From positions 1,922,001-1,986,000 of the forward strand of contig NC_057383.1 of NCBI RefSeq assembly GCF_016906535.1: DNA of 64,000 bases, read 5' to 3'. The notes under the pieces were generated by a model. That model was not told where the DNA came from. It did not search any database and worked only from the letters and a program-made list of their open reading frames with translations. A program made the position numbers and the translations under genes. Origin of the DNA: Rhizoctonia solani (Eukaryota; Basidiomycota; Agaricomycetes; Cantharellales; Ceratobasidiaceae). This document shows, one piece after another, positions 1,018-22,110 of the stretch (its first letter is position 1; every line of letters begins with the position of its first letter).

Positions 1018-1517
1018 CTAGGTAATCAACCTTACGTTGGTTGCAAACCGTTTTGTACCCACCACTAAGCCCCAACCACCGAGAAGAGTACCAGTACTAG
1101 CACGACCGAAATCACGTGATCGGGGCCACCTTGCGGGAAAAAATAATCAAAATTCCCCCACCCCCACGTAGTAGGAAATTGCTATAAGGCTGAATACTCC
1201 TATTGCCCGCATACCACAGGTCGCTGCACCCTCTACCTGCGGCCTTAGACAGTTGATCCACCCGCTTGCAGAAACCCTGCTCCACATCACGCCCGTCTAC
1301 GGCTGTTGATTGGTTGAAAGGACTGTCCAACGCTAGGTTGGTTGAGACAAAGGCTTAGCGTTTGAGTAGTAAAGCACTCATAAGTCCTGATATAGGCACC
1401 CCTGGCTACACAGCCTCCACTCCCCACCACTCGCCCATCATTACCTCGCGCACTCCCACTCGCTCCTCGTCCCAGGCATCTTCCCACGCTGGCCGCTCCT
1501 ACCCGCCAACACATACC
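1018..1517 (+). other. Leader (5' UTR) of element A
   Basis: About 500 bp between the LTR and the gag ATG at 1518, aligning with 8174-8658 of element B. No conserved reading frame. A short hairpin-capable AACC/GGTT pair follows the primer site. I see no other signal. Confidence 0.7.
1020..1032 (+). other. Self-primer binding site of element A
   Basis: AGGTAATCAACCT begins two bases after the LTR. It is not complementary to a tRNA 3' end (no TGG start), but it complements LTR positions 758-770 at 12 of 13 bases. The one mismatch is a CpG-type change. Self-primed Ty3/gypsy elements such as fission yeast Tf1 use the 5' end of their own RNA this way, so the same mechanism is inferred. Confidence 0.65.
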
Positions 1518-2870
1518 ATGGCAACCCGTTCCCGGCCAGCCTCTTGAACCCGCTCCCCAATCAATCAAGGGGAGTTGGGATCCCACCTTCCAACAGCCCC
1601 CTATGTCGAACTCGGGGAAGTATCCCTCGAGCGAATCACAAGTCTCCTCCTTGGCCTCCTCAGCCAAGTTGAGAACCTTGAACGGAAGGTGGAAGAAGTC
1701 CGAGAAGCGGGAGTCGAAGCCCGCACCAACCTTGAGAACATCTCTCAAGCCGTCGATACTGTCAAGGATGGGCTTAGAAGCCTCCAGCTCCACGGGCCCA
1801 GGACCCCAGAAGACACCAAACCCCCGGCCGTGGAAGCAACGCCACGCCCCCTATCAAAAGTCAACCCTATTGGATCGACTAGTCGGGTCTCATTCTGGCC
1901 TGAACCGTCCAAGGGGCTCCCCGTCTTTGCCCAGCCCACTCCCATACGAGGAGTACCCCTGCGAGTCCCATCTCCCCCTCCATCTCCGCATCTCCGATCC
2001 CCAATCGGGACACCTGCCCCTCCACCACCGGCTCCAGTTGCCGCCTATCCTGCCCCGGTCAAAGTAGACCACCCAGATGCCTATACAGGCAAGATCGGGA
2101 GTGAGGCCAAACAATGGCTCACCAGGATGTTGGCCTGGACCCGATTGAACTCCCGCATGTTCCCCACGGACCAAGAGGTCTTATCATTCCTTCTCATGAA
2201 CATGAAGGATTCCGCGGGAGCATGGGCCCATCCGCACCTTGACCAGCTTGGGTCACACCGAGCCATCATCCAAACGGTCGAAGGCTTCAAACTGGAGTTC
2301 CTGGCAGCGTTTGGCGACCCTGATGCCACGAGGGCCGCCGAGCGGAAAATAACCTCCCTTACCCAATCCGGCACATGCGCGGATTATATTACAAAGTTCA
2401 GAACCCTAGCAATGGAACTGGACTGGAACGACGCGGCCCTTCAAGGCCAGTTTGCCCGTGGCCTCCACTGGGAGGTCAGTCGACAAATCGCAACCCGCGA
2501 GCACCGCCCCCGTACCCTCTTAGAGCTGCAAAACGCAGCACTTGTCATCAATAACGCCCTCCGAGAGGAGCGTGCTAGCCATCCGCCAAAGGATAGTAAG
2601 TCTAGCAGACCAACTAACCCCGCAAGGGGGACGAGTACCGGCCAGTCAAGCACCGGTTCTAAGAAGCTCTCTGACGATCCAAACTTTGTATCGGAAGAAG
2701 AACGAAATCGCCGCCGCGCCGCTGGCGCCTGCATCAAATGCGGCAAAATGGGTCACAAGTTTGCGGAATGCCGCACGGGATGGAAGGCTACCCCTATTGA
2801 GGACAAAGGGAAGGCCAAAGAAACCGCCAAGGTTGGCAAAGACTCCGAGTACCAGCCGGGAAAAGAGTAA
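1518..2870 (+). pseudogene. gag of element A, interrupted by an early TGA
   Basis: Starts at ATG 1518 (MATRSR), matching the intact gag of element B. After nine codons it meets TGA at 1545-1547, where B has CGA: a CpG to TpG change. The frame then stays open to TAA at 2868-2870, about 440 further codons. Domains: an N-terminal coiled coil (about residues 25-90), a Pro-rich linker (about 95-175), a Ty3/gypsy capsid-like domain beginning near VDHPDAYTG (about residue 180), and one CCHC zinc knuckle (CIKCGKMGHKFAEC, 2731-2772) followed by a basic tail. The product would package element RNA in cytoplasmic particles. As written, only readthrough or internal initiation could give near-full-length protein. 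Confidence 0.9.
2858..2864 (+). promoter_or_regulatory. -1 ribosomal frameshift heptamer between gag and pol of element A
   Basis: GGGAAAA reads G GGA AAA in the gag frame, two codons before the gag TAA, and fits the X XXY YYZ rule. The -1 frame is open from 2864 straight into the protease. A GC-rich stretch with CTGCCGCGCGC follows at 2877-2892. The identical heptamer sits at the same place in element B. Confidence 0.65.
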
Positions 2871-5800
2871 GGGTACCTGCTGCCGCGCGCAAGGACCCCA
2901 AGGACTCTGGGCTTGTTGAAATCTGTAACATATCAAATAGTAACAATAGAATCTCCCCCCTTTTTACGATTTCAATTAAACCCAAGAAGCAAGCGGAAAC
3001 ACTAGAAGTCCTGATAGACTCAGGCGCCACATCATCATTTCTTCACCCCCGCACCGCTGAGGCATTACGCCTACCCCTCATAGACCTCCCACTACCCCGC
3101 ACCGTCACTATGCTCGATGGGTCGAGCCCCCAGGCTGGCAAAATTTGGAAGAAGGCTAACCTAACCTTCTCCTTTGATGGCAAACGCATAACTGAGACAT
3201 TTCTCATTTGCAACACAGGATCTCACGCCGCCATCTTAGGATTGAAATGGTTGGATGCCCACAACCCAGAAATAGATTGGAATACGCGCACCCTCTCCTT
3301 CCCGCACACCCCACCAGAACATGTGGCCATTGCCAAGGAGGAGGAAGCTGACAAAAACCCTCTTGAAGGAGTACCCCCTGAGTATCATCAATATGCTAAG
3401 GTATTTGGGGAAGAAGAATTCAATAAGCTCCCTCCGCACCGGCACTATGATATTGGGATAGAACTCACGGAAGAAGGCCCCCTCAACTCTCCACTTTACA
3501 GTATGACAGACGCTGAGTCCGCCACACTCAAGGACTGGCTCAGGGATGAGTTGAAAGCTGGAAAGATCCGCCCCAGCAAATCTTCCATTAGTTCACCGGT
3601 CATGTTTGTACCTAAGAAGGATGGTTCCCGCCGATTGGTTGTTGACTACCGTTGCCTAAACAACCGCACCAAGAAAAACGTTTACCCGCTTCCCTGTCCA
3701 GATGACCTCATGGCCCAGCTCCGTGGTGCCAAGGTCTTCACCAAGCTAGACTTACGATGGGGTTACAACAATGTGCGGGTGAAAGAAGGTGACGAGTGGA
3801 AAACCGCATTCCAAACCAAGTACGGTCTCTACGAATCCCTGGTCATGACTTTTGGTTTGACAAATGCTCCAGCCGCCTTTCAACACTTTATGAACAAACT
3901 ATTCAAGGATTTGTTGGATGTATGCGTCATCATCTACCTTGATGATATCCTGATTTACTCAAAGGATGACGTATCCCACACAAAACACGTTCATGAGGTC
4001 CTGAAACGGTTAATGGATAATCAACTGTTCTGCAAGGCGTCCAAGTGTACATTCCACGTTACCTCTGTGGAATACCTGGGAATCATTGTCTCCAATAAAG
4101 GTTTTAGTCTGGATAAGCTCAAAATCCAGGCGGTACAGGAATGGCCGGCACCCACTAAAGTCAAAGAAGTCCAATTGTTCTTAGGGTTTGCCAATTTCCT
4201 CCGCCGATTTGTTGCCAACTTCAGCCACATGGCTAGGCCATTACACAACCTAGTCAAGAAAGATACACCTTGGAGATGGGATACAAAGGAACAGGAAGCA
4301 TTCCAGGGACTAAAAGATGCCATTACCAACGCCCCTGTACTTTGTCACGCCGACCCTACCAAGCCCTACTTCCTAGAGACGGACGCTTCTGGTGCAGCCT
4401 TAGGTTCCATTCTTAGCCAACAACAGGAAGACGGCCGCTTACACCCATTAGGTTTCCTGTCTGAGTCTTTCAAGGGTGCCAAACAGAATTATGACACCCA
4501 CGACAAGGAACTCCTGGCCATTATCCGGTCGTTTGAATATTGGCGCATCTTCTTGGAAGGGACCCTGCACCCCGTAACAGTCTTCACTGACCATCGGAAC
4601 TTGGAATACTGGAAGGAGTCTAGAACTTTCAATCGCCGCCATGCACGTTGGCACCTCCTCCTGGCTGGATACAACTTCCAAATTGTGTATCGCCCGGGCA
4701 AACAGTCCGGCAAACCAGATGCCTTATCCCGGCGATCAGACCATGCTGACGTCCCACCTGCTGCCCAGACCATGCTCCCAGATCCTATCTTTGCCAACAC
4801 CGCACTAGTTCTACCAGAAAAGGAGTTACAACAGCGTATAGAATCAAGCCTGGATCAAGACGAGTCCCTGGAAGAAATCCTACAGTTCCTGCAGAATGAA
4901 TCCAAAGCGCCCCCATCCATCAAACGAGCATTCAAGGACTACCAGATGGAAGCAGGATTACTCTTCTACCAAGGACGGATTGTGGTCCCTGACGTCGGAA
5001 CCCTACGTACGGATTTACTCCAAATCTTCCACGACAGCCCATCGGCAGGACATCCAGGCAGGCAACGGACCCTGGAGCTAATCTCGCGCAACTACTATTG
5101 GCCAGGCATACGCGCGGACACATACTGGCACGTAGACTCCTGCGAAACCTGCCAAAGGATTAGGAAACCCAAATACGCGTCGATCCCACCACAGCCGTTA
5201 GAACTCCCTGTACGCCCATGGCAACACATTTCCTATGATATGATTGTCAATCTGCCAAGGGACGGGGCCTATGACTCCATACTAGTTATTGTTGACAGCT
5301 TTACCAAATACGTCATATTGGTAGAATGTTCCAAGAAACTAAAAGCCCCTGAACTGGCGGAACTGTTCTTGCAACACGTCTGGAAAAAATACGGAATGCC
5401 GGAGAAAACAATCTCAGACCGTGGAAGAGTGTTCAACAACAAGTTTCTGAAGGCATTGTACCAACAACTAGGCATAGACCCGCACTTCTCCTCCGCTTAC
5501 CATCCCCAGAGCGACGGGCAGACAGAACGGGTGAACCCTCCGTAGAACACTTCCTAAGAGCATACTCCGGCACTAATCAAAGGGATTGGGTCAAATGGTT
5601 ACCAATGGCAGAATTTGCCTACAATAACGCAGTGCATAGTGCCACGGGGAAGTCACCTTTCAAAGCGCTCCACGGATGGGAACCAACCTTAACCCCTTCC
5701 AACATTCCTACGGACGTGCCAGAGGCCGATAAACTAGCGGAAGCCATGGAAGCACAATGGAGAGAAGTCGAGTCCGCCCTCCGGCATTCTAAACAACGGA

Positions 5801-6300
5801 TGGTAGCCGGAGAACACGGAAGCCCAACAGAGTTTGAGGTTGGAGAAGAAGTATGGCTTGATGCCAAAAACGTTAAACTCAAAACCTTAAGTCCCAAGCT
5901 AACGGAACAACGCTTAGGGCCATTCAAAGTCACGGAAAAAATCTCCGACCGCGCTTACAGGCTGGAACTCCCACCAACCATGCGCATCCATAACGTATTT
6001 TACGTGGGACTATTGTCTAAGGTCAAAAGGGACGACAAACGGGCCTTCAAGAACCGTCCACCACCAGTCACCGTGGATGGGGAAGAAGAGTACAAGGTTG
6101 AAGGAATAACGGATGCAGAGGAACGCAACGGAAAATGGTTCTTCCGGGTCAAATGGAAGGGCTATGGCCCCAAGGAGAACACATGGGAACCTCGAGAAAA
6201 TCTGAAAAATGCGGGGAAAATTTTAAAAAAGTACAAGGAAGACATGAGAAAGAAGGCCCTCGGCGCTGCCAAGGCCCTTAAGGGGGGGGCAGTGTCGTAG
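2864..6300 (+). pseudogene. pol polyprotein of element A (PR-RT-RNaseH-IN-chromodomain), one frameshift
   Basis: Entered by -1 frameshift. Domains in order: aspartic protease with LIDSGATSSF (Asp codon 3017-3019); reverse transcriptase with YLDDILIYS (about 3935-3961); RNase H starting at ETDASGAALG (about 4375); integrase zinc-binding HHCC region (about 5040-5160); catalytic Asp in SYDMIV (about 5233) and in SDRG (about 5415). The frame is lost near 5538-5545, just after TERVN. Element B reads on there through one extra base, so this is a 1-nt deletion. It reopens in the third frame, and an ORF from 5605 to 6300 carries the integrase C-terminus and a chromodomain with Trp-rich FFRVKWKGYG and NTWEPRENL motifs (about 6085-6240). 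The stop TAG is inside the 3' LTR. Chromodomains target integration to heterochromatin marks. Confidence 0.93.
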
Positions 6301-6873
6301 ACACAGTTGATACCAGGGAATTTATTCCCATTTTCTCGATTTTAAACAAAGACAAACGGACAACATTTTCAATCACGTGATCTCGGCGCTTATAACATAC
6401 GCTAAGCGCCGAGCCACGTCCCCTTCCGCGCTTAGTCAGCACACGTAGCCACCTCCACCTGATGACATCACTATGACACGTCAGTGACACGTATGCATGA
6501 GTAAGGCCAACTACGGAACGGGGTTCTTATTTGATACAGTATTGCATATAAATGTATTTGTAATTAGTTAGCTCTGTAATATATAAGGAGGCCAACCGAC
6601 CATGGTAACACCCAGGTCGATTACCTCTTGTCGCATCCTATCACTGTACGAGGACCTTAGGTCCAGTAACTACTTAGCTCACTAGTTCCACGTCGCCTTA
6701 AGCGGCTTCCCCACTGTACTTAGATAGCTTGTCGTTGCCCTTATAGGTCTAGACACCGTAGTATAGTTGGTCGTTGTCGTAGGTAGCTTGCTCACCGCCT
6801 TACGCGGTTTTCACTTAGATACATCCGGCCGCAAGCGCCCTCCTCCTCGACGTCCTTACAGACGTCTAGGACA
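6293..6873 (+). repeat. Right (3') LTR of element A
   Basis: 581 bp, same length as the left copy. It differs from the left copy at 8 positions found by eye, each CpG against TpG or CpA. The pol stop codon TAG (6298-6300) lies inside this LTR, so the last two codons of pol overlap it. The presumed self-primer segment is at 6614-6626. Confidence 0.93.
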
Positions 6874-6897: not shown

Positions 6898-7178
6898 TCA
6901 ACCCTTTCCGTCTTGGGTGATATCCTGAATAGAGCAATGGAAGTTATCTAACTCAAGTTCTTTTTCAACTAGAAGGTGGTCCCTTTCCTTGATAAGGCGT
7001 TCCTGCTCTTCAATGGTAAGAGCAAGATTGCGGTTGTGGGCTTTGAGGTTGGTAATAAGGTTCCTTTGTTCTTGAAGATCTGCCTCGTAGATATTATTGA
7101 GGCGCTCTGCAAACAACTTATGATGTTTAATATGGGCTATGGTTTGGACTAGCCCTGGTTCTTCAATGCGAGCAATGT
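6898..7178 (-). pseudogene. Gag-like coiled-coil fragment of element C between insertions A and R
   Basis: Minus-strand frame continuing from 19809-19940 once element R is removed; the junction reads EEHIARIEE without a break. It continues as a strong coiled coil rich in Leu, Glu, Asn and Lys, with LLVEKELELD near the end, and stops at TGA 6898-6900. The remaining sequence to 6878 leads to the next frame of element C beyond element A. No catalytic motif is seen. Part of a C Gag protein by inference. Confidence 0.55.
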
Positions 7179-7602
7179 TGTCATGACCCACTCCATTCTT
7201 CCCATGAGTCCTGACCTTGTCAAGCCTCCAACACACTCATGTTGCACACCAACATGACCGCAAGCACGCATATACTCGCACATATGCAGTCAGAACCTCC
7301 AGGTTCCTACATATAAGAGACTTATGGTCGACATGGCTGGACTTAGTGATATTCTCTAAGTCCAGGTCACATGACCTCCCCCCTCCAGTCCTTTATCAAA
7401 TACTATACTAAACTACTACGGATTTGAGGTGGGGGGGGGGATGACATAATCTCTTCTATAATAATATATTATTCAGACCTTGCCCGCGGGCATTAACATT
7501 GGCCCGCAGCTAGGGGGGTGGGGGGAGTGCAACGTCCCCCAGCAACTTATATTATTAATATATCACTGTGCATCATATATACTATATATATCTTTGACAG
7601 TG
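7179..7602 (+). repeat. Left LTR of element R, 5' part
   Basis: Matches 19348-19771 of the right LTR. It contains a possible TATA (CATATAAGAGAC, about 7308), a perfect 8-bp hairpin GGACTTAG/CTAAGTCC, a G-run (7431-7440), and a GC stem-loop at 7486-7507. Element B is inserted at its end, duplicating CAGTG. Confidence 0.9.
7486..7507 (+). other. GC-stem AT-loop hairpin in the R LTR
   Basis: GCGGGC, then a 10-nt loop ATTAACATTG, then GCCCGC: a perfect 6-bp stem. On the minus strand the loop reads CAATGTTAAT. The right LTR copy (about 19653-19674) has one stem base changed by a CpG transition. Rolling-circle origins of CRESS-DNA replicons are AT-rich nonanucleotides on such hairpins, but this loop does not match a standard nonanucleotide exactly. 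Confidence 0.3.
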
Positions 7603-8173
7603 TGTCGTAGACACAGTCAATACCAGGGAATTTATTCCCATTTTCTCGAATTTAAACAAAGTAGAACGGATGACATTTTCAATCACGTGATCTCGGCGCT
7701 TATATCATACGCTAAGCACCAAGCCACATCCCCATCTGCGCTTATCTCAGCATACGTAGCCACCTCCACCTGATGACATCATTATGACACGTCAGTGACA
7801 CGTATGCATGAGTAAGGCCGACTGCGGATCGGGGTTCTTATTTGACACGGTATTGCATAAAGTTGTATTTGTAATTAGATAGCTCTGTAATATATAAGGA
7901 GGCCAACCGACCATGGTAACACCCAGGTTGATTACCTCTTGTTGCACTCCACACATTGTACAAGGCCTTACAGCCGGTAACCACTTAGATACACGCCTTA
8001 AGCGTTGCCCTCACTGTACTTAGGTAGCTTGTCGACGCCTTACAGCGTCTGTTTGCCTTAGTTAGTTAGCTCGTCGTCGTAGGTAGATCCCTCGCCGCCT
8101 TACGCGGTTTTACTTAGTTCTATACGGCCTCAAGCGCCCGCTACCTCGACGCCCCTTAAGGACGTCTAGGACA
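7603..8173 (+). repeat. Left (5') LTR of element B
   Basis: 571 bp, TGTCGTAGACAC...TCTAGGACA. TATA box TATATAAGG at about 7891-7899. The self-primer segment AGGTTGATTACCT is at 7925-7937. Confidence 0.93.
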
Positions 8174-8175
8174 CT

Positions 8176-8188
8176 AGGTAATCGACCT
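8176..8188 (+). other. Self-primer binding site of element B
   Basis: AGGTAATCGACCT begins two bases after the 5' LTR. It is the exact reverse complement of 13756-13768 in the 3' LTR, in the segment about 30 nt downstream of the LTR TATA box. This supports priming by the element's own RNA 5' end. Confidence 0.68.
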
Positions 8189-8658
8189 TACGTTGGTTAC
8201 AAACCGTTCTGCGACACCCTCTACTAAGCATCAACCACCGAGAAGGTTACCTGTACTAGCACGAGCAAAAACACGTGATCGGACTCCCCTTTCAGCTGGA
8301 ATAATCAAAGAGCTGTTGGTCCCACGTAGTAGCGAATTGCTATAAGGCAGGCTAACCCTATCGCCCGCATACCACACGGTCGCCGCACCCTTTGCTAGCG
8401 AACCCAGACAGCAGATACACCCGCTTGCAGAGACAAGGTACTACATCACGCCCGCCCACGGCAGTGATTAGTTATACTTACTGTTCAACGCTAGGTTGTT
8501 TGACGCAGGGTTTTAGCGTATTACGCAATAAAGCGCTCATAAGTCCTGACAAAGGCACACACTAGTTCTTCCCCCTGCCCACCATTACCTCTCGCACCCC
8601 CACTTGCTCTTCTTTGCGGGCCTCTCTCCATGCTGGCCGCTCCTACCCCCCTCATACT

Positions 8659-10011
8659 ATGGCAACCCGCTCCAGGACGTCCTCTCGAGCCCAATCCCCC
8701 TTTGATCAGGGATACTTGGAATCCCGACTTCCGCCAACCTCCACTCTCGAACTTGGCGAAGTATCCCTCAAGCGCGTCACGCGCCTCCTCCTTGGCCTCC
8801 TTGGCCACGTCGAATGTCTCGAAAGAGACATTTCCGAGATCAAGGAAGCAGGGATTGAAACAAGGACCAACGTCAAAAATATTTCCCAAACCGTTGATGT
8901 TGTCAAGGATGGGCTTCGAAGCCTCCAGCTCCAAGGCCCTCGTACCCCTGAAGGCCCCCAGCCAAAGGTCGTGGAAGAAACGCCACGTCCCGTACCCAAA
9001 ACCGAACCTACTGGAACGGTTAGTGGGTCCTCCTTTTGGCCAGAACAGCCACGAAGCCTCCCCACCTTCGCACAACCAACCCCAAAGAGAGCAGCACCCC
9101 CGCAAGTCCCATCTCCCCCTCCATCTCCGCGTCTCCGATCCCCCATCAGAGCACCTGCCCCTCCTTTCCCGGCTCCAGCTGCCGCCTATCCCGCCCCGGT
9201 CAAAGTAGACCACCCAGACGCCTATACAGGCAAGATTGGGAGCGAAGCCAAACAGTGGCTTACCAGGATGCTGGCCTGGACCCGGCTAAACTCACGCATG
9301 TTTCCCACGGACCAAGAAGTCCTATCCTTCCTTCTGATGAACATGAAGGATTCCGCGGGAGCATGGGCCCACCCTCACCTGGACCAGCTTGGGTCACACC
9401 GGGCAATCATCCAAACGGTTGAAGGGTTCAAATCAGAGTTTCTGGCAGCGTTTGGCAACCCTGATGCCACAAGGGCCGCCGAGCGGAAAATCACCACCCT
9501 CACCCAGTCCGGCACCTGTGCGGACTATATCACAAAGTTCAGGACCTTAGCAATGGAGCTGGACTGGAACGACGCGGCCCTTCAAGGCCAGTTTGCCCGA
9601 GGCCTCCACTGGGAGGTCAGCCGTCAAATCGCAACCCGCGAGCATCGCCCCCAAACCCTCCTCGAGCTGCAAAACGCAGCACTTGTCATCAATAACGCTC
9701 TCCGTGAAGAGCGTGCTAGCCATCCGCCAAAGGATAGTAAGCCTAGCAAACAGTCCAACCCCGCAAGGGGGACGAGTACCGGCCAGTTCAGCACCGGTTC
9801 AAAGAAACTCTCCGACAACCCTAACTTTGTGTCAGAGGAAGAACGAAATCGCCGCCGCGCCGCTGGCGCCTGCATCAAGTGTGGCAAAATGGGCCACAAG
9901 TTCGCGGAATGCCGCATGGGTTGGAAAGCCACCCCCATCGAGGATAAGGGGAAGGCTAAGGAAGCCGCCAAGATTGGCAAAGACTCTGAGTACCAATCGG
10001 GAAAAGAGTAA
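8659..10011 (+). CDS. gag of element B (capsid/nucleocapsid), intact
   Basis: ATG 8659 (MATRSR) to TAA 10009-10011, 450 codons uninterrupted. The start is chosen because the corresponding ATG is conserved in element A (1518); upstream in-frame sequence has no ATG. Features: an N-terminal coiled coil with LLLGLLGHVE and ISQTVDVVKDGL (about 20-90), a Pro-rich linker, a Ty3-type capsid domain from VDHPDAYTG (about 180-330), and a CCHC zinc knuckle CIKCGKMGHKFAEC (9871-9912). It would assemble particles and package RNA. It could in principle serve sister copies whose gag is broken, such as element A. Confidence 0.93.
   Translation: MATRSRTSSRAQSPFDQGYLESRLPPTSTLELGEVSLKRVTRLLLGLLGHVECLERDISEIKEAGIETRTNVKNISQTVDVVKDGLRSLQLQGPRTPEGPQPKVVEETPRPVPKTEPTGTVSGSSFWPEQPRSLPTFAQPTPKRAAPPQVPSPPPSPRLRSPIRAPAPPFPAPAAAYPAPVKVDHPDAYTGKIGSEAKQWLTRMLAWTRLNSRMFPTDQEVLSFLLMNMKDSAGAWAHPHLDQLGSHRAIIQTVEGFKSEFLAAFGNPDATRAAERKITTLTQSGTCADYITKFRTLAMELDWNDAALQGQFARGLHWEVSRQIATREHRPQTLLELQNAALVINNALREERASHPPKDSKPSKQSNPARGTSTGQFSTGSKKLSDNPNFVSEEERNRRRAAGACIKCGKMGHKFAECRMGWKATPIEDKGKAKEAAKIGKDSEYQSGKE
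9999..10005 (+). promoter_or_regulatory. -1 ribosomal frameshift heptamer of element B
   Basis: G GGA AAA in the gag frame, followed by GAG TAA. The -1 frame is open from 10005 into the protease with no need for an ATG. The same heptamer, spacing and GC-rich downstream stretch occur in element A. Confidence 0.65.
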
Positions 10012-13000
10012 GGGTACCTGCTGCCGCGCGCAAGGACCCCAAGGACTCTGGCTTAGTATTGGAATTTTGTAATATATTGCAATCACATAGAAATAAACCC
10101 CTTTTCACAATTCCAATCAAACCAGAGAAGCAAGCGGAAATACTAGAAGTCCTGATAGATTCAGGCGCTACCTCATCATTCCTCCACCCTTGCACAGCGG
10201 AACTACTCCGCCTCCCCTTGATAGATCTCCCACAACCCCGCATTGTTACTATGCTTGATGGGTTGAGCCCACAGGCTGGCAAAATTTGGAAAAAGGCCAA
10301 TCTAACCTTCCTATTTGATGGCAAGCGTATGACAGAAACTTTCTTAATCTGTAACACCGGATCACACGCTGCCATCCTAGGAATCAAATGGCTGGAAACC
10401 CATAACCCTGAAATCAACTGGAACCAACGTACCCTTTCCTTTCCCCATGCGCAACCAGCACACGTAGCCATCGCCAAAGAAGAGGAAGCAGACAAGAACC
10501 CCCTTGAAGGAGTACCCCCCAAGTACCATCAATATGCCAAAGTATTTGGGGAAGAAGAATTCAACAAGCTTCCCCCTCATTGGCACTACGATATTGGAAT
10601 CGAACTTACGGAAGAAGGCCCTTTGAACTCGCCCCTTTATAGCATGACCAACGCCAAATCCGCCACGCTCAAGGATTGGCTCAGGACAAGCTTAAGGCCG
10701 GAAAGATCCGCCCCAGTAAATCTTCCATCAGTTCCCCTGTCATGTTTGTACCAAAAAAGGATGGTTCCCGCCGATTGGTTGTCGACTACCGTCGCCTTAA
10801 TAACCGGACCAAGAAGAATGTTTACCCGTTACCCCGTCCTGATGACTTGATGGCCCAACTCCGCGGCGCCAAGGTCTTCACCAAACTGGACCTACAATGG
10901 GGTTACAATAACGTCCGGGTTAAAGAAGGTGACGAATGGAAAACGGCCTTTCGCACTAAATACGGCTTATACGAGTCCCTGGTTATGACCTTTGGTTTGA
11001 CAAATGCCCCCGCCGCTTTCCAGCACTTCATGAACGAGTTGTTCAAGGACTTACTGGATGTATGCGTCATCATATACTTAGATGACATCCTGATTTACTC
11101 CAAGGATGACGCATCCCACACTCAGCATGTTCATGAGGTCCTACAGCGCTTACTGGAAAACCAATTGTTTTGCAAGGCTTCAAAATGCACATTCCATGTG
11201 ACTTCCGTAGAATACCTGGGAATCATTGTCTCGGATAAAGGCTTTAGCCTGGACAAGCTCAAAATCCAGGCGGTACAAGAGTGGCCAGTTCCATCAAAAG
11301 TCAAAGAAGTCCAGTCATTCCTAGGTTTTGCCAATTTTCTTTGGAGGTTTGTTGCCAACTTCAGTCACATAGCCCGACCCCTGCACAACCTAGTAAAAAA
11401 GGATACACCCTGGAAATGGGACACCGAGGAACAGGAGGCCTTCCAGAATCTGAAGAATGCTATCACCAGTGCCCCAGTACTCTGCCATGCCGACCCCACC
11501 AAACCTTACTTCCTAGAAACGGATGCTTCCGGCGCAGCATTAGGCTCCATACTGAGCCAACGCCAGGAAGACGGTCGCTTACATCCCCTGGGATTCTTGT
11601 TGGAATTGTTCAAAGGTGCCAAACAGAACTACGACACCCACGATAAAGAACTCCTTGCAATCATCCGTTCCTTTGAATATTGGCGAATCTTCCTGGAAGG
11701 AACAACCCACCCTATCACAGTGTTCACCGACCACAGGAACCTTGAGTATTGGAAAGAATCCAGGACCTTCAACCGTCGTCATGCCAGGTGGCACCTCTTG
11801 TTAGCAGGATATAATTTCCAAATAGTCTATCGCCCTGGTAAACAGTCCGGCAAACCAGATGCATTATCCCGCCGCGCCGACCACGCTGATATCCCACCTG
11901 CTGACCAAACCATGCTTCCCGACCCTGTCTTCGCCAACGTTGCACTAGTCACACCGGAAAAGGAACTACAACGCCGCATTGAGTCAAGCCTAGACCAAGA
12001 TGAGTCCCTGGAAGAGATCCTACAGTTCCTACAGAACGAATCCAAGGCCCCGCCCTCCATTAAACGCGCGTTCAAAGACTATGAGATGGAGGCCGGCCTA
12101 CTATTTTACCAAGGACGGATTGTGGTACCTGACGTAGGGACCCTACAAACGGACCTGCTGCGAATCTTCCACGATAGCCCATTGGCTGGCCATCCAGGCA
12201 GGCAGCGGACCCTAGAATTGATATCCAGAAGTTACTACTGGCCCGGTATCCGTGCTGACACATACTGGCACGTGGATTCATGCAAAATCTGCCAACGGAT
12301 CCAAAAACCTAAGTACGCGTCCATCCCACCGCAACCCCTGGAACTACCATCACGCCCTTGGCAACACGTATCCTACGACATGATAGTGGATCTACCAAAG
12401 GACAGAAGCAACGATTCTATACTGGTCATTGTGGACAGCTTCACCAAATATGTTATCCTGGTGGAGTGTTCCAAGAAGCTCAAAGCCCCGGAATTGGCGG
12501 ACCTATTCTTGCACCATGTGTGGAAACGTTACGGCATGCCAGAAAAAACGGTATCAGATCAAGGACAAGTCTTTAATAACAAATTCCTAAAGGCTCTGTA
12601 CCAACGCCTAGGGATAGACCCCCATTTTTCCTTGGCCTACCACCCTCAAAGCGACGGTCAAACGGAACGCGTGAACCCTACGGTCGAACACTTCCTAAGG
12701 GCTTACTCAGGGGTGAATCAGAAAGATTGGGTCAGATGGCTACCAATGGCGGAATTTGCCTACAATAACGCGGTACATAGTTCAACAGGCAAATCCCCGT
12801 TCAAGGCACTATATGGCTGGGAACCTTCCTTAACCCCGAGTAACGTCCCAACAGACGTCCCGGAGGCAGATGACTTGGCGACGCAGATGGAATCTCAATG
12901 GCGGGAAATAGAGGCGGCACTCCGGCAATCAAAGACACGCATGATAGCCGGAGAAACAGGAGAACCACTCAAATTCGAAGTTGGGGAAGAGGCCTGGTTA

Positions 13001-13441
13001 GATGCTAAGAATGTGAAGCTAAAAACCCTGAGCCCCAAGCTAACGGAGCAACGCCTGGGCCCCTTCGAAGTAACTGAAAGGATCTCCGATCGCGCCTACC
13101 GCCTCAGACTCCCACCAACCATGAGGATCCACGACGTCTTTTACGTAGGACTACTGTCCAAAGTGAAGAGGGATGACAAACGTGCTTTTGAGAACCGTCC
13201 CCCACCAGTCACCATAGATGGGGAAGAAGAATACGAGGTTGAGGGAATTACAGACATGGAGGAAAGAAATGGGAAATGGTTTTTTAGGGTGAAATGGAAG
13301 GGCTACGGATCAGAGGAAAACACCTGGGAACCAAGGGAAAACCTCAAAAATGCCGAAAAAATCCTAAAAAATTTTGAGAAGGAAATGAAAAAGAAGGCCC
13401 TTGGCGCTGCCAAGGCCCTTAAAGGGGGGGCAGTGTCGTAG
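10005..13441 (+). pseudogene. pol polyprotein of element B with a single 1-nt deletion
   Basis: Protease DSG at 10158-10166. The frame breaks near 10684, between protease and RT, where element A has one more G; the next frame overlaps and is open to TAG 13439-13441. RT has YLDDILIYS (about 11075-11101) and RNase H starts at ETDASGAALG (about 11515). Integrase has a zinc HHCC region (about 12180-12300) and catalytic residues in SYDMIV (about 12373), SDQGQVFNN (about 12550) and TERVNPTVEH (about 12665). The C-terminal chromodomain (about 13230-13385) has FFRVKWKGYG and NTWEPRENL. All catalytic motifs are present, so one base separates this copy from a complete pol. Confidence 0.93.
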
Positions 13442-14004
13442 ACACAGTCGATACCAGGGAATTTATTCCCATTTTCTCGAATTTAAACAAAGTAGAACGG
13501 ATGACATTTTCAATCACATGATCTCGGCGCTTATATCATACGCTAAGCACCAAGCCACATCCCCATCTGCGCTTATCTCAGCATACGTAGCCACCTCCAC
13601 CTGATGACATCATTATGACACGTCAGTGACACATATGCATGAGTAAGGCCGACTGCGGATCGGGGTTCTTATTTGACACGGTATTGCATAAAGTTGTATT
13701 TGTAATTAGATAGCTCTGTAATATATAAGGAGGCCAACCGACCATGGTAACACCCAGGTCGATTACCTCTTGTCGCACTCCACACATTGTACGAGGCCTT
13801 ACAGCCGGTAACCACTTAGATACACGCCTTAAGCGTCGCCCTCACTGTACTTAGGTAGCTCGTCGACGCCTTACAGCGTCTGTTCGCCTTAGTTAGTTAG
13901 CTCGTTGTCGTAGGTAGATCCCTCGCCGCCTTACGCGGTTTTACTTAGTTCTATACGGCCTCAAGCGCCCGCTACCTTGACGCCCCTTAAGGACGTCTAG
14001 GACA
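13434..14004 (+). repeat. Right (3') LTR of element B
   Basis: 571 bp. Its segment 13756-13768 (AGGTCGATTACCT) is perfectly complementary to the primer site at 8176-8188; the left copy has one CpG-type mismatch. The pol stop TAG lies inside the LTR start (13439-13441). Confidence 0.93.
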
Positions 14005-14050
14005 CAGTGGATATATATGGTAATAACCCCTCCAGATATGGGTTATGACA
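14005..14050 (+). repeat. Left LTR of element R, 3' remainder
   Basis: Continues the R LTR after element B. The first five bases (CAGTG) are the duplicated target. The sequence to GGGTTATGACA matches 19767-19808 apart from a TA-repeat length difference. Confidence 0.88.
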
Positions 14051-15390
14051 TTGAAAACAAGCTGCTTACCTATACCCAGTATATATACATATATATGTGT
14101 ATATGTATTGCCTATAGGGGATGTAGGGATGACTAATGCCCCTACATCAATGATGCACAACATATTGTCCCAACAACACAACTTCTGATTACCATTTATG
14201 GTAACTCACCTTCCTAATTAGGAAAGAGACATAACTTGAAGAAGACTTTCAAGACAAATAGAGACTAAGCAACCTAGACTTACCAAAAATGGCAATCCCC
14301 TTTCCAAATTAGGAAAGAAGATGAAATGGATGGATGACTAAGCTTAGTCAGCTGAACTCTGATGAGTCAGCAATCAGATCACATGATTAACTCATTGATG
14401 ACAAATCAAGTATGACTAAGCACAATGACAAATGCTTAGTCAGCAACCAGGTCACATGATTGACTCATGAATGACAACTCAACTATGACCAAGCATAATG
14501 ACAAATGCTTAGTCATCAAGTACTACCTGCACTGCCACAATCACATGATGATGGCTGTGCTTGATCTCTGGGTTAAACCGGGCTGGATTGGGGAATAGAA
14601 TTACCATATAAGGAAATTGGATGAGTCATACTTATATTGTGGCTGTACATGCCAAGAGTATGAGTCATACTTAAGCGGTGTTCCACGTGATCATGTGCTA
14701 AAAATAGAACCAACTCTGCCAAGACCTCACCTCACCGGTGTATTTCTTGGCATGTGATTGGCTAATCAAACACTGCCACATGGTTCTTTGACTCATACTG
14801 CTTCTTGAGGCTGTGCTACGGCTCCAAGAGGCTGTGCTCCTATTTGAAATATGTATATAGACCCAAGTGATGCCCAGGTATATAGGGGCGGAACAAGCTG
14901 CTTAGAAAGCCAGCTTGTTTTCCCTTGTCTTACAACCTATAGGGACAAGCAGGTGTTGCTACACCTCAAAAAGAGCAACTGCGTGATTTATTTGAAATTC
15001 AACTATCAACAACTGTCAACAAAGGATCTCCACTGATCCTTCTATCTGATTAGTGATAAGAAGTACTGTCAGAGTCTTCTCATCACTAGGACCCTAGGTG
15101 TCCACTGCTTTACTTGCAAATAGCTAAAGACTTCCTCTGTGGGTTGCACTATTTTGCCTCTTGCTAACTAAGACTTCTTGTCTTCTACTTGCAAATAGCT
15201 AAAGACTTCCTTTGTGGGTTGCGCTATTTTGCTTCTTACTAACTGAGACTTCTTGTCTTCTTCTTGCAAATAGCTAAAGACTTCCTTTGTGGGTTGCGCT
15301 ATTTGGCTTCTTACTGACTAAGATAGGTATATCTTGGAACTTGCAAGTAATAGAGACTATTATAGTGCTCTATTTGGCCTTTTGCAACAA
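14051..15390 (+). other. Repeat-rich leader of element R
   Basis: No long ORF. Around 14335-14520 there are imperfect direct repeats built on TGACTAAGC/GCTTAGTCA and CACATGATT. A TATA-like GTATATAGG lies at about 14877-14885, followed by the hairpin AACAAGCTG/CAGCTTGTT (14892-14919). GAAAACAAGCTG right after the LTR (14053-14064) is complementary to 14911-14922. The 75-bp tandem repeat is listed separately. Confidence 0.6.
15112..15335 (+). repeat. Three tandem copies of a 75-bp unit
   Basis: Units begin at 15112, 15187 and 15262, each containing GCAAATAGCTAAAGACTTCC and GTGGGTTGC. They differ at a few bases. They sit just upstream of the Gag-like gene of element R. Function unknown. Confidence 0.85.
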
Positions 15391-17059
15391 TATGGGAATT
15401 CATAAGATGCAACCTAGGTGTGTATTTGGGACTTTGCCCCAATTGGATAACCCTGGACATGATCATGTCATGGAGCTGACATCTCCTATGCAAGGCATGG
15501 AACAGGGACATCAGGAAGGAGTAGGAATTACCCCTTCTAAACAGGCTGACCAACCGGATATGGAATCATTTCAACTTGCCACAGCTAGGATCCTAGACCC
15601 TAGGCATGAGAATCCAGGGAATAACACACCCTTGGAGGACCCTGCCACCAGGGAAAAGGAAACCCCTTTGGTAGATGAGGCAACCAGGAATAAGACAGTG
15701 AAGGATTTATTGAAGACTTCTTTGCCAAATTCCCTGAGGAAACTCAACCACCAAAAACTGAGACAAACAGGAAACGGATTACTAATGACCACCTTACAAG
15801 TACCCAAAAGGTCTATGGATTCTTAATGGAACTAGTAATGGGAGTCAAAAGGTTGGAGAAACATATTGACAACCATCTAAAGATGGAACAGGAAATGCTG
15901 GATTGAGGCATTTCTCAGGAAGTGATTGATGAATTGGATAAAATACTTCCCTTGTCTTCCCTCTGGGAGGCTGAGAACAACAGTGAATCCAATTCTGATA
16001 AATCAGGGTCTACTGAAATCCAATGTGAGGTGTGTGGGAGAACAAACCACTCTACTGAAGAACATAGGAAATCACGTGACCCTAGGGCAAAGGGCAATAA
16101 AGGGTCTGACAAGCGGAAAGATAAGGGTCCTGGCAACCCAGGGTATACAGGAAGGCATCCCATGGCTGGGGAGTCATCACAAACCACCACTGGCACCACT
16201 ACTTTCTTATCCATTCCCATCACTAAGACATCATGCCTGCCATCAGAACAGAGACCAGGATCTCCAAGGCAACTGGAGATACCATCTCTTACCCCCTTGA
16301 CAGATCCAGTGAGCACAGGACCAAGTTCCCTTGGTCCCAGGACAACCTGGATCAATGGGCACCCCCAGATCATCCATGGGCTGGGACATGGGGAATGATC
16401 AACCCCTTATCACCAACATCCATGGCTGGTATAAGGTCATCACAAGATGTGACTCCATCTAACAATCCAAGGCTTATGCCAAACTACTGATCCCTCAGCA
16501 ACCCTTGATTACATACCAATGGGTCAACGATGGAAATGCTACTGGATTGGAAGAACCCTATGCTGTCCAATCAGCCACCAAAACAACCCAAACTAATGCA
16601 AAGTACCAAGTTCTTTGTGTGTAGAGGTAATGTGGGTGCCTCTGTGGAGGATGTAGTGAGGGCCCCAGTGCTAAAGCACACAAGGAAGTTGGCAGAGTGG
16701 CATCTAGACATTGAGGAAATTGATCCTGAATGGTGGATACCAATCTCAACAGTAAGGGAATGGCTGGCTGCGGAAATTGAAACTGGAAAAACAAACTGCC
16801 ATCAGGCTTAGGTGGCTATGTGGACAACCTCACTCCTGAGGATGTCTATTACATGATCCTAGAACGCAAAATGAGCATAGAGGATCTACATGACTGGCTC
16901 AAACAATGGGCCATGCAAGCAGCTCAGAATGATCTGAGCAGAAGTATATCCAACTTAGCAATCCATGAATTAAGTGATGAAGGAGGACATGAGTCTGACC
17001 TTGAAAGTAACAAGGCCATGAACAAATGGAATCCCTTGGATTATGCTGATGGAATGTGA
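15391..17059 (+). pseudogene. Decayed Gag-like plus-strand gene of element R
   Basis: Starts at ATG 15391 (MGIHKMQPR). The frame must be changed near 15705, passes a TGA at about 15904-15906, and shifts again near 16400-16530 and 16795 before the final stop at 17057-17059. Pieces include an acidic, polar N-terminus and a coiled-coil stretch (about 15790-15905). A variant zinc-knuckle-like CEVCGRTNHSTEEH (about 16024-16065) is followed by a Lys/Gly-rich basic stretch. The acidic C-terminus includes DNLTPEDVYYMILE. Zinc knuckle plus basic tail suggest Gag or another nucleic-acid-binding particle protein. I do not recognise the family, and introns could account for some of the breaks. Confidence 0.5.
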
Positions 17060-17269
17060 TGAAATATGTAACATTCCATCCAATAACCTTACATCCTTCT
17101 CTTCTTCCTTTTCTTCCAATGTTTGCTCCTTCTTAGTAACCATCTGTCTTATCTGATCTCTCAAGAATCATTTTATCTCTAAGTGCCAAATGGAGGAAAA
17201 GAAAAGACGCTTTTATTGAGACAGGGACCAAAACATACAAAGCAAGAAAAAACAAAAACAGGAAGGGAA

Positions 17270-18952
17270 CTATCTAATACAACTTATCACCATATACACA
17301 AAGGTGCAATTGGTGTCTATCCAATTCTTGCCATCAACTGTGGCATAACTACAATCAGCAAATACAGAAGGCTTAGAATTGGAACAAATAACAGTAGAGC
17401 GCCCCCATTGGCAATGGCGCTCTGATCTGTAACTAGTGTGGAAATTGAAATCTTCCTGCACCCACATCTTCAAAGGGACCTTGGACCAATCCATATCATC
17501 CAGCACTGCATACTGAACCATAGGATGGTCACTAAACTCATCAGAGTTAAGATTCTGCCTGAACCTAATGTGGTGGCCCCAAGAACAAGCAAGGGCTGAC
17601 TTCCCTGTCTCTGAAGGACCCCACAAAACAAGGATCTTACCACAATCAGATTCAGGATCTCTTTCCAATATATTGGAAGTAACCCACTCCTGAACACCAG
17701 GTGGCAGGTTGACTGTAGCCCTGGTAACAACATGTCAATACTCCCTTCTACCATAGAAAAGAAGGAGACTCACTTCTTAAGGGCCTTGGGCTCACATACA
17801 CCCTGAGGAAGGGCGCCCTTATCCCTGTAAAAGTAACCAGTAAAGGCCTTGAGGTTGTTATACCCCATGGCCATGTCACAAGGTTGGCGCTCCTTTAAGT
17901 GACCAAAGAAACCCTCTGCATCCTCTGCCTCCATTGCATAGGCAAAGTCCTCATTGCGCTGAGAAAGGAAGATCTTTAGCAAGTAATTTCACTCCATATC
18001 TTGGAACTTACATTGGTCTTGGCCTTCAACCCTGCAGGGCATTGACCCAATAGGAACTCTTCTGTAAGGGTCCCATATTGTGCCTCCCAGGCATTTGCCT
18101 CCTTCTTGAGGTACTCATAGGCAGATAAGGGAGCAACTCCCATTACTGTCCTTGAGCAAAAGAAGACGCTCATGGGGGCGCACTCCTTTATACTTCCATA
18201 GGTTCAGGCCCTCTGAGGAGATAAGAGTCCTGGCCCAAACAATGACATGGCAATGCCAGTCAGGATGCCACTGTCCTTCTTTCAAGTCATGGGACTCTGT
18301 AACCCCCATGGCACTTTCCAAAAGGGGTCCCCCTCCACTCCTTAGAGTGAGCAGGTGGTCCACTAGACTAGAAAGGAGATATTAGTAAAAGAATACAATA
18401 TCCAATCAATTCACTTACTCCTTGACAACCTCATGACAAGAGGCTTGCACTGTATTCTCACCCTTGACATAACAGGCATATGTCAAGAGGTAACACTTCC
18501 CCTTGCAGCAAAAGCGCCTTCCTTCTTGAGGAAGAACCCCAATGTCCTCTTCCCCTTCAGGGGCTACAGGAACAATAGAGTCCCTTGACTCCAATGGAGC
18601 CATGGATGGGACAATGGAGCTTCCTCCATCTTCTGAGCCTTCCCTGTTGCTGGGCATGACTAACCAACGCCTGGACAAGGGGGGAAGCTTGCAAAATATC
18701 TGTGACTATACAGTTATCTTTTAGTAAAAGAACCTTTTACTATCAACCAAGACCACTTACTCCTTCTTCTTGGGAGTCCAGATCCAACCTTCTTTTTAGA
18801 GCTCTGGGAGCGAGCTGTGACAGAGGCAGCTCCTGACTCTGCCACACAGTAGATGCAATCTGGGAAACATAGGGGGTGGCATCCAACAGCCCTGAAGGCT
18901 GTGAATCCAAGACTGTGGAGGGAGTGGCGCTGGCAGTTGGGCATTGAGACAT
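17270..18952 (-). pseudogene. Geminivirus/genomovirus-type Rep gene (HUH endonuclease + SF3 helicase) inside element R
   Basis: Minus-strand, apparently six exons: 18952-18761, 18699-18419, 18367 to about 18165, about 18165-18012, 17958-17774 and 17720-17270. Introns are short with GTAAGT or GTGAGT donors. Rep motif I is YLLTYA (exon 2), motif II HUH is HCHVIVW (exon 3), and motif III with the catalytic Tyr is YEYLKK (exon 4). SF3 helicase: Walker A GPSETGKS, Walker B AVLDDMDW and motif C ICSN, all in the last exon. A Lys/Arg patch near residue 52 may be an NLS. The frame changes between exons 3 and 4 near 18150-18175 without a good intron, so this copy is probably broken there. Known Reps nick and rejoin ssDNA and unwind it for rolling-circle replication. 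It runs convergent to the Gag-like gene. Confidence 0.85.
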
Positions 18953-19347
18953 GTTGATGACTTATCCCCCCTCCCACTGCCCTCTTCTTTATACCATGGG
19001 GGCCAAGAGACTGAGTCAGAGGGAAATGACTTACTATACCAATCCTTTCTGATCAATAAAATGGCACCATACTGTAACCAAGCAACCATGAAATATGTTG
19101 CTAACCAGGAACTTCCAGAAGACTTGAGAAGCTACCTTACAAAGACAGTAGTGTGGGAACTTTCCCACAGGAAGAAAACAACATTCCAACAAGGATCACA
19201 TGACCAAGAACAAGTCAGGTGACCTCAGAATAACTCATTGCACAATTATACCTAGGAGAACTTGACACCTAATAAGATATCTACCCAGACATCTTTTACA
19301 ATGGCACAAGTTCATGTCCTCTAAACTATGTGCAAAAGGGGGGGCAA
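18953..19347 (-). other. Upstream region of Rep to the R polypurine tract
   Basis: About 395 bp between the Rep start and the right LTR. It would hold the Rep promoter. No clear TATA or origin-like nonanucleotide is seen; the G-rich tract at 19334-19344 primes plus-strand synthesis by analogy. Confidence 0.4.
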
Positions 19348-19808
19348 TGTCATGACCCACTCCATTCTTCCCATGAGTCCTGACCTTGTCAAGCCTCCAA
19401 CACACTCGTGTTGCACACCAACATGACCGCAAGCACGCATATACTCGCACATATGCAGTCAGAACCTCCAGGTTCCTACATATAAGAGACTTATGGTCGA
19501 CATGGCTGGACTTAGTGATATTCTCTAAGTCCAGGTCACATGACCTCCCCCCCTCCAGTCCTTTATCAAATACTATACTAAACTACTACGGATTTGAGGT
19601 GGGGGGGGGATGACATAATCTCTTCTATAATAATATTATTCAGACCTTGCCTGCGGGCATTAACATTGGCCTGCGGCTAGGGGGGTGGGGGGAGTGCAAC
19701 GTCCCCCAGCAACTTATATTATTAATATATCACTGTGCATCATATATACTATATATATCTTTGACAGTGGATATATGGTAATAACCCCTCCAGATATGGG
19801 TTATGACA
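19348..19808 (+). repeat. Right LTR of element R
   Basis: 461 bp, TG...CA ends, preceded by a G-rich polypurine tract and followed by TSD AATGT. Differences from the left copy seen by eye are CpG transitions plus small length changes in AT and G/C runs. Confidence 0.9.
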
Positions 19809-19940
19809 AATGTGTTCTTCAAGATTGTTGATGCAACCAACTAAAACGTGGTTGATGTTGCTGATAGTTTTCTCAAGAGAGGTAACGGGTGACAATGGAG
19901 TAGGGCCAAAAGATGGCAAAGAGGATAAGGTCTAAGAAAT
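19809..19940 (-). pseudogene. Gag-like fragment of element C, 5' side
   Basis: Open minus-strand frame downstream of an in-frame TAG near 19931-19933; that TAG is preceded by a pyrimidine-rich stretch (TTTGATTTCTTAG) and could be an intron acceptor. It reads into the fragment at 7178-6898 across the R insertion. No ATG is visible in this piece, so the start is unresolved. Confidence 0.4.
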
Positions 19941-20772: not shown

Positions 20773-22110
20773 CCTGGTGAGTGTGGTGTTGACTGGCAGC
20801 TACTCTATGCAATGGGTTGCCGCAGAGACTATGACTTGTATAACAGCACGCGGGTAAGTCACACATTGGTCAAATGTATGACTGACCCACTTGTTATAGG
20901 GAAAGATCTGGGCTGTGGCGAAGGCATTTGCATGTAGGATTGTGGAGCGCACACTTGTTATAGGGAAAGATCTGGGCTGTGGCGAAGGCATTTGCATGTA
21001 GGATTGTGGAGCGCAGGCAGCTAGAAACATAACTTGGGGTGACTTTGGTTCAAGCAATCGCAAGGAGTTCTATGATGGAGTAAATATATATTTATTTGCT
21101 TCATTCTTGACACTCTGACTATTATATTTTTTAGTGTTTCTGGGCTGTGGCGAAGGCATTTGCATGTAGGATTGTGGAGCGCAGGCAGCTAGAAACATAA
21201 CTTGGGGTGACTTTGGTTCAAGCAATCGCAAGGAGTTCTATGATGGAGTAAATTATATATTATTTGCTTTCATTCTTGACACTCTGACTTATATTTTTTA
21301 GTGTTATAAAGCTTGTCCATGGCTCTTCCATTTCCGGGGCGAGGCGAACGACGACTGCTGGGTGGCTCGATTGGTCATCCAGCAATATTTTCAGGCCAAG
21401 GGATACGACCCAAAGCAAAGTAAGTGGCCGTGCATCTTATTTAATCATTGCTGACGTACGCTATAGCAAAACCCAGGGAACAGGACGACAATCTTTGTCG
21501 GAATGCATCCAAACTTGCGCATAAGGACGTAATCCCCCCAAGGACGAGGACCCGTACTATATCAATGTGCCAGAAGGGGGCTACGGCAATGGGCCAAGCG
21601 GTTGGCGAAATTCAAGCGCTCTGATTCACCCTCTTGCGGGCGATCCTTGTCCACCAACTGCCTCCTCGACTTCGTCCTCGAATCGCCACGCTCGTCGGGC
21701 AGACAAGGTCGTTTCGGAGGAAGAAGCTCGCGCTACGGCGTCCAAGTCCAGCGCATCAACAACGAAGCCTGCAGCACAGCAGGGAAATAAGCAAAAGGCA
21801 AGTGTTGGAGTATACTTTTAATAAATTCTAACTTGACATCTAGGTCCTTCGCAGAGAAAGCGAGTTGTAGAGTCATCGGACAGTGAATCGGAGCAGGCAA
21901 GTTAATTGAATGTAAACGTATACGGTGTAACTAATAATTTACACTTCAAGGAGCCCGCTGCAAACGCAAATTCCCCGCCCCCGGCAAGCCCCCCGTCCCT
22001 CGACTCCCCAGAGACCGCCCATCCCCGTCTCCGCCCCAGGATAGCCCCCGTCCCCGTCTCCGCCCCCACCCCCGGCAAGGTCCCCAACAAAGACGCCTCG
22101 CTCAATCGTT
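20773..22110 (+). pseudogene. 3' part of a host gene interrupted by element C; product not recognised
   Basis: The reading begins at the C insertion point with DWQLLYAMGCRRDYDLYNS, a GT donor at about 20852, then an exon with GKIWAVAKAFACRIVER that is repeated in tandem. A later exon from about 21305 has CYKACPWLFHFRGEANDDCW and ends at a GTAAGT donor near 21419. After that come Ser/Thr/Pro/Lys-rich exons with RKRVVESSDSESEQ-type sequence and a tail to a stop near 22109. The Cys/Trp-rich segment looks like a conserved fold, but I cannot name it. The N-terminal exons would lie beyond element C, off the window. Exon duplication and insertion make it a pseudogene. Confidence 0.5.
20889..21305 (+). 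repeat. Tandem duplications of one exon and its introns
   Basis: A 64-bp unit is repeated at 20889 and 20953. A 168-bp unit (20971-21138) is then repeated at 21139-21305, nearly identical except for A/T run lengths. The units include the intron acceptor, the exon GKIWAVAKAFACRIVER and the following intron, so the exon occurs three times. Confidence 0.88.

Follow-up and report, generated by a model that had tools for sequence, protein, structure and literature searches.

An LTR element of Rhizoctonia solani carrying an antisense, intron-bearing gene for a putative CRESS-DNA-type Rep protein

Background

A multicopy mobile element with a geminivirus-like Rep gene occurs in the fungus Tuber melanosporum, where the gene is borne by a transposon with terminal inverted repeats (TIRs; Liu et al. 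2011, PMC3198968). The plant elements Retand, Grande and RIRE2 carry a conserved extra gene towards the 3' long terminal repeat (LTR), in antisense orientation to the RNA of the element (PMC11963269). LTR families with an added open reading frame (ORF), ORF3, are described from bdelloid rotifers (PMC5408684), and Teratorn is a transposon that has fused with a mobile or viral element of a different kind (PMC10175614). Here we analyse a stretch of 64,000 nucleotides of Rhizoctonia solani DNA (GCF_016906535.1, contig NC_057383.1, positions 1,922,001 to 1,986,000; hereafter the window), in which an earlier note had seen a Rep gene inside an LTR-bounded unit, element R. This first observation is upheld: the Rep-like gene is built into an LTR element that occurs in multiple copies. 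With a probability of about 0.82, R is a non-autonomous derivative of a Ty3/gypsy chromovirus that is copied by its partner and whose cargo includes a selected, antisense Rep gene of the type found in circular Rep-encoding single-stranded (CRESS) DNA viruses.

Structure of element R and its copies in the genome

R spans positions 7179–19808 of the window, with a left LTR that is interrupted by a nested LTR element, and has several parts in common with L031, an intact chromovirus at another place in the genome.

7174–7178, unstranded: left copy of the 5-bp target-site duplication (TSD) AATGT, from sequence reading
7179–7602, plus strand: first part of the left LTR of R, up to the nested insertion, 98.1% identical to 19348–19769
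7603–14004, plus strand: nested Ty3/gypsy-like LTR element in the left LTR, foreign to R, with TSD CAGTG and gag-pol-like ORFs
14005–14050, plus strand: remainder of the left LTR, matching 19764–19808; 14005–14009 is the second TSD copy of the nested element
14051–15157, plus strand: 5' leader of R (1.1 kb) with the primer-binding site (PBS), 95% identical to chromovirus L031
15111–15335, plus strand: 75-bp unit repeated three times in tandem where the leader meets the cargo, the unit partly common to the partner L031
15158–19310, unstranded: cargo of R (4.15 kb), in the place of the partner's gag-pol, with no L031 match except the repeat units
19334–19344, plus strand: polypurine tract (PPT) AAAAGGGGGGG, the same in L031
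19348–19808, plus strand: right LTR of R, TGTCATGACC ... GGTTATGACA, from comparison of the LTR pair
19809–19813, unstranded: right copy of the 5-bp TSD AATGT, from sequence reading

The LTRs, PPT and TSD that the earlier note had placed around Rep are all real. The LTR pair of the window copy diverges by 1.9% across 425 aligned bases, and the LTRs of the nested element (7602–8174 and 13433–14005) are 98.1% identical to each other. The cargo holds ORF1 and ORF2 on the plus strand and Rep in antisense. Pfam scans of cargo pieces gave no match to a reverse transcriptase or integrase, and none to a transposase in the scanned pieces of R, which has LTRs in place of TIRs. The LTRs and the 5-bp TSDs do not agree with a Helitron or other rolling-circle transposon, nor do the LTRs and the lack of a transposase match in those pieces agree with a geminivirus-like TIR transposon of the Tuber type. 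Three features of a non-autonomous Ty3/gypsy element are found in R: a TG...CA LTR pair with TSDs, cis sequences common with an autonomous element, and no reverse transcriptase or integrase match in the scanned cargo pieces.

Searches of the 40.7-Mb, 16-contig R. solani assembly, in which copy counts are lower bounds (40 of 281 candidates were scored in the LTR search and 40 of 53 in the leader search), returned 31 matches to the Rep region, 14 of which span the full query at 87–100% identity. An LTR begins 394–396 bp from the Rep start in all 14 full-length copies (complete in 11, partial or split in 3), and plus-strand cargo and leader lie at constant spacing or matching places beside the Rep copies. 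Two LTRs are present in 11 elements, that of the window and ten others, some cut by later insertions; an exact 5-bp TSD flanks eight of the 11, a TSD with one mismatch two, and the last has none. The ten LTR pairs outside the window differ by 2–8 substitutions per ~466 bp (0.4–1.7%, gaps uncounted). Because the TSDs are separate and the LTR pairs little diverged, the copies of R are separate, fairly recent insertions of the whole LTR-cargo-LTR unit, and the suggestion that Rep spreads as cargo of an LTR element holds. R copies that lack Rep with clean junctions, which the earlier note had named as a refuting result, were not seen; among the elements with the leader but without the cargo, the two that were read carry gag and pol frames. 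Two copies in opposite orientation lie about 8.5 kb apart at C12:237880-251066 (L005, L006); they are equally similar to the window copy and resemble an inverted duplication.

No LTR was found in the 1.5-kb flanks of 8 of the 30 Rep loci. Three of these (L019, L024, L026) are parts of split elements, three (L028, L029, L030) are pieces that R sequence adjoins, and two (L022, L023) are taken up below. None of the loci is a complete stand-alone Rep gene, and the 79 exon matches of P0011, a deposited protein of R. solani AG-8, all fall at places already returned by the genome search with the Rep region.

The Rep gene

Rep occupies 17273–18952 on the minus strand in five exons, which are separated in the window by introns of 61, 51, 53 and 53 nt.

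18761–18952, minus strand: exon 1 with the start codon, from copy comparison
18419–18699, minus strand: exon 2 with motif I (YLLTYA), from the motif
18012–18367, minus strand: exon 3 with HCHVIVW and YLKK, from the motifs; reading frame interrupted in the copy of the window
17774–17958, minus strand: exon 4, in which the central region resembling Gemini_AL1_M starts, from profile comparison
17273–17720, minus strand: exon 5 with the superfamily 3 (SF3) helicase motifs GPSETGKS, AVLDDMDW and ICSN, from the motifs; reading frame interrupted in the copy of the window

Reps of CRESS-DNA viruses are recognized by motif I, HxH, YxxK, Walker A, Walker B and motif C, all of which are present here in the expected order, as the earlier note had read them on the minus strand between short introns. 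HxH (HCHVIVW) and YxxK (YLKK) are kept in the aligned relatives from R. solani AG-8 and Ceratobasidium. The five-exon model, with introns of 49–61 nt, fits 17 single-locus copies and one split copy; introns were found in every copy examined, and 70 of 71 scorable introns are bounded by GT-AG (the intron-4 fragment of L024 was left out of this count). In P0011, exons 2/3, 3/4 and 4/5 are joined at the same points, as compared by eye. All Rep exons are open in 8 of the 14 full-length copies. The introns had been taken to imply long residence or domestication, which is not needed, because the antisense orientation would carry them through the RNA of the element: since Rep, judged by its orientation, lies antisense to the genomic RNA, its introns would stay unspliced there and survive each round of reverse transcription. 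The antisense placement offers a simple explanation for an intron-bearing gene that rides a retrotransposon.

Between two Rep subfamilies (A and B), the ratio of nonsynonymous to synonymous divergence (dN/dS) is 0.131 (bootstrap 0.087–0.191, 485 codons), compared with 1.20 and 2.17 when the wrong frames are read, and two further pairs gave 0.132 and 0.135 (wrong frames 1.11–1.59). In exon 3 of the first pair dS is 0.78 and dN 0.08. Exon-wise ratios, from which exons with frame breaks or odd length were left out, and from whose subfamily averages also L001, L008 and L014, are 0.33, 0.11 and 0.13 for exons 3, 4 and 5 within subfamily A and 0.41 for exon 2 between subfamilies; values within subfamily B mix alleles, because B includes the mosaics L007 and L009. 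Introns 1 to 4 diverge between the subfamilies by 9, 45, 34 and 19%, respectively, with splice sites kept. Rep is under purifying selection and largely intact, and because its copies are many and dN/dS is 0.13 in frame versus 1.1–2.2 in the wrong frames, the gene is not a product of chance. As selection maintains Rep, its protein would therefore have benefited the element or the host.

The alleles of Rep also recombine. The plus-strand backbone (15.8–16.9 kb) differs by 0–3.3% between the A and B copies compared, and Rep by up to 35% per 120-bp window between the same copies. L007 carries a recombinant Rep with open exons, in which exons 1–3 are of B type (95 B and 5 A sites, 1 neither) and the rest is of A type (50 A and 0 B sites); L009 and L014 are mosaic as well. 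Such a pattern is what template switching between co-packaged RNAs would give.

The affiliation of Rep with the CRESS-DNA (geminivirus and genomovirus) type is suggested by the order of its motifs, by one relative that matches a profile, by the name under which a protein is deposited, and by structural matches, which are weak. The profile PF08283 (Gemini_AL1_M) scores 25.8 bits in P0007, over the cut-off of 24, with 23.8 bits in P0010, 22.7 in P0008 and 14.2 in exon 5 of the window alone. P0009 bears the database name 'Geminivirus Rep catalytic domain [Rhizoctonia solani]'. A Foldseek search of BFVD with the structure model of P0011 returned 14 matches at E <= 0.001, and the seven that are named are all Reps, six of them from genomoviruses. 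The exon-5 structure model has a predicted local distance difference test score (pLDDT) of 32.2, and Pfam scans of single exons gave nothing decisive.

Several observations weigh against a selected Rep of CRESS-DNA type that is mobilised as part of R. The PF08283 cut-off was reached by 1 of the 17 relatives scanned, and PF00799 (Gemini_AL1) by none of the six window Rep pieces and none of the 17 relatives; a PF00799 profile search of the own genome gave no matches, and its control gave no signal either. The P0011 structure model is poor (pLDDT 49.5), and its BFVD matches have template-modelling (TM) scores of ~0.2. No relative was found among viral_contigs in scans with the exon-5 alignment, the exon-3 alignment, P0011 and P0025, and no match in phage and plasmid searches with exons or relatives; neither sequence nor fold searches gave a significant match in the PDB (fold search, 0 of 707 at E <= 0.001). 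No conserved origin of viral type was found: of 30 loci, the window copy alone has the nonanucleotide TAATATTAY. The window Rep itself is broken in exons 3 and 5, where other copies are open, and with it 6 of the 14 full-length copies are broken; exon 2 shows little constraint when copies of one subfamily are compared (0.82 and 1.50, the second value resting on few changes). L022 and L023 hold a 646-bp Rep fragment (exons 4–5) without LTR or cargo.

Two of these points were followed further. TAATATTAT at 19630–19639 in the LTR, which resembles the viral nonanucleotide, was considered as a viral origin and dropped, being missing from 29 of 30 loci; a looser origin pattern found mainly TATTATTAT within an AT-rich LTR stretch, with the word in 13 of 14 copies and a similar word in the other one. 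L022 and L023 (C8:105 kb and C16:3532 kb) are one duplicated segment, 98.3% identical across 3.65 kb, in which the Rep fragment lies antisense and directly next to a gypsy pol fragment. One flank matches many gypsy pol-like places at 76–79% and the other a high-copy repeat mostly at 90–98%; a stand-alone source gene was rejected here, and with repeats on both sides the fragment is taken as debris.

A chromovirus partner

The leader search listed places where the match ends at the cargo junction, and two of these (L031, L032) were fetched and read; both elements have the leader without the cargo, and both carry gag and pol frames. L031 (C9:2102500-2111500) is a Ty3/gypsy element with LTRs that are 100% identical, the TSD CTTCT, gag and pol frames of 675 and 1134 aa, and Pfam matches to RVT_1, RNase H, an integrase zinc domain and Chromo. 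As its LTRs do not differ and its gag and pol frames are long, it was probably recently active. L032 (C13) is similar; its frames are shorter and its left LTR is partial, and it has the leader and 3' end in common with R. Compared with R, L031 has a leader of 95% and LTRs of 88–93% identity, an unchanged PPT and a PBS stretch with a single difference; the LTR, leader, PBS and PPT are of the same type in both, but L031 has gag-pol and no match to the R cargo beyond the repeat units. As these cis sequences are common to R and the intact L031, R is probably mobilised in trans by a chromovirus partner, and its TSDs and young LTRs likewise point to copying by the partner's Gag-Pol. The use of retrotransposon machinery in trans, which the earlier note had considered, is thereby probable.

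R would thus keep the LTRs, the leader with the PBS and the PPT of its partner, whose Gag-Pol would copy it in trans, and the 4.15-kb cargo would have replaced gag-pol with a zinc-knuckle-like ORF1, ORF2 and the antisense five-exon Rep with its HUH endonuclease and SF3 helicase motifs. The likeliest target of Rep might be the extrachromosomal DNA of R itself (LTR circles or complementary DNA), where nicking and unwinding could multiply templates, which we offer as a tentative guess. More doubtful still is a two-mode element that uses borrowed Gag-Pol to integrate by reverse transcription and its own Rep to replicate its circular DNA, by a rolling-circle or a nick-and-unwind mode. If this were true, R would be a retrotransposon and a single-stranded DNA (ssDNA) virus replicon fused as one selected unit.

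Accompanying cargo genes and neighbouring elements

15407–16398, plus strand: ORF1 with a zinc-knuckle-like CX2CX4HX4H motif, broken in the window copy and long in the copies compared
16230–17059, plus strand: ORF2, a frame of 287 aa in the majority of the other copies; that of the window is broken
17048–17080, unstranded: hairpin with a 10-bp stem and a 13-nt loop between the convergent ORF2 and Rep, overlapping the ORF2 stop codon

The plus-strand selection test used 13 of 16 copies (L018, L008 and L004 were dropped), with dS low throughout (0.04–0.10). It gave a dN/dS of 0.25–0.32 for ORF1 across the first 600 nt examined and of 0.09–0.15 for ORF2 at positions 751–1200 of the tested stretch (its later part). 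The cargo holds at least two constrained genes, of which Rep is one; constraint is also seen in the two plus-strand frames beside it.

Other R. solani records and metagenomic ones hold relatives of the ORF1/ORF2 cargo. Kinship of ORF1 with the partner's gag or other retroelement proteins was not found (best BLASTP E 0.25), and neither ORF2 nor its relatives matched a family or solved structure in Pfam, PDB or NCBIfam, capsids included. P0020 and P0021, which correspond to parts of the plus-strand cargo, bear the database name 'Vegetative incompatibility protein HET-E-1', a wrong name that was probably carried over from another record. A 28-bp stretch that is absent from the window cargo after 16572, compared with L012, was considered as a spliced intron; a deletion is likelier, because its length fails to join the frames of ORF1 and ORF2. 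Of 20 distinct places, 16 have the 9-bp core of the hairpin exact, 3 have it with one mismatch and 1 has lost it; the hairpin is a candidate site of Rep action.

Beyond R, the window contains two related Ty3/gypsy-like elements at 434–6589 and 7603–14004, the second being the one nested in the left LTR of R, a copia-like element on the minus strand at 36972–42634 with 271-bp repeats at 99% identity, and tandem duplications of 64 and 168 bp at 20888–21305.

Alternative explanations

Selection on Rep might reflect a benefit to the host, with an endogenised Rep that interferes with ssDNA mycoviruses or serves the cell and an LTR element that merely amplifies it. Purifying selection and the several open copies would fit, and host-protective roles of endogenous viral sequences have been proposed in the Tuber study (PMC3198968). 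A host gene of this kind has no complete stand-alone locus among the own-genome matches, however, and the eight LTR-less loci are accounted for by three split elements, three pieces of R and the two fragments on C8 and C16 with exons 4–5 only, so we regard it as unlikely. The whole cargo could also be a captured ambisense ssDNA virus or plasmid, for which the LTR unit is the vehicle and which may still excise or replicate. The convergent layout of ORF1/ORF2 and Rep, the hairpin between the genes with its largely kept core, the joint travel of ORF2 and Rep in most cases, and the own start of the metagenomic ORF2 relative P0025 are in keeping with such a replicon. It is nevertheless improbable: ORF2 matches no capsid family in Pfam, PDB or NCBIfam, the knuckle of ORF1 is gag-like, the hairpin loop is without the viral nonanucleotide, P0025 has no match among the viral contigs, and ORF2 occurs without Rep at C15:892 kb.

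Lower again in probability is passive transduction, by which a host Rep was swept once into an LTR element and is now decaying, its constraint predating the capture. The broken copies (6 of 14, including that of the window) and the nearly unconstrained exon 2 within subfamilies are what decay would leave, but exons 3–5 remain constrained within subfamily A (0.33, 0.11, 0.13), an allele recombinant keeps open exons, and the LTRs are young. An independent insertion of Rep into one existing copy of R, unconnected with the spread of R, has next to no probability in view of the identical LTR spacing in the 14 full-length copies and their separate TSDs, and no point in its favour was found. The partner-copied chromovirus derivative with a selected antisense Rep is the reading we prefer over all of these.

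Comparison with known systems

No LTR element with a Rep gene was found among the papers listed in searches of the openly accessible literature, in which subscription papers are mostly missing, so that its absence is unproven; in the R. solani AG8 genome paper (PMC4014442), the terms 'gemini' and 'Rep protein' do not occur. Purifying selection, allele recombination and recent copies together suggest that a replication protein of ssDNA-virus type is useful inside an element copied through RNA, and whether elements that spread by reverse transcription can merge with rolling-circle ones is a question for which R provides a case from nature.

Teratorn unites a piggyBac-like DNA transposon with a large DNA virus (PMC10175614). 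Unlike R as read here, it is not RNA-mediated. The viral part of Teratorn is reportedly a herpesvirus. For the rotifer elements, the paper lists ORF3 of env, DEDDy, GDSL, CC and TM types, and the term 'Rep protein' is absent from that text (PMC5408684). In the plant elements the extra gene stands between pol and the 3' LTR, whereas the cargo of R is in the place of gag-pol, and the antisense ORFs named in that study encode TRP28 and other domains, Rep not among them (PMC11963269). The Tuber element has 37-bp TIRs, transposase ORFs, no obvious TSD and a Rep ORF that is interrupted in the authors' consensus (PMC3198968). R differs from it in having LTRs, 5-bp TSDs, no transposase match, introns, and a Rep on which purifying selection acts and whose exons are open in 8 of the 14 full-length copies. 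Rep-holding transposons and LTR elements with antisense extra genes are each known; R joins the two kinds in one element.
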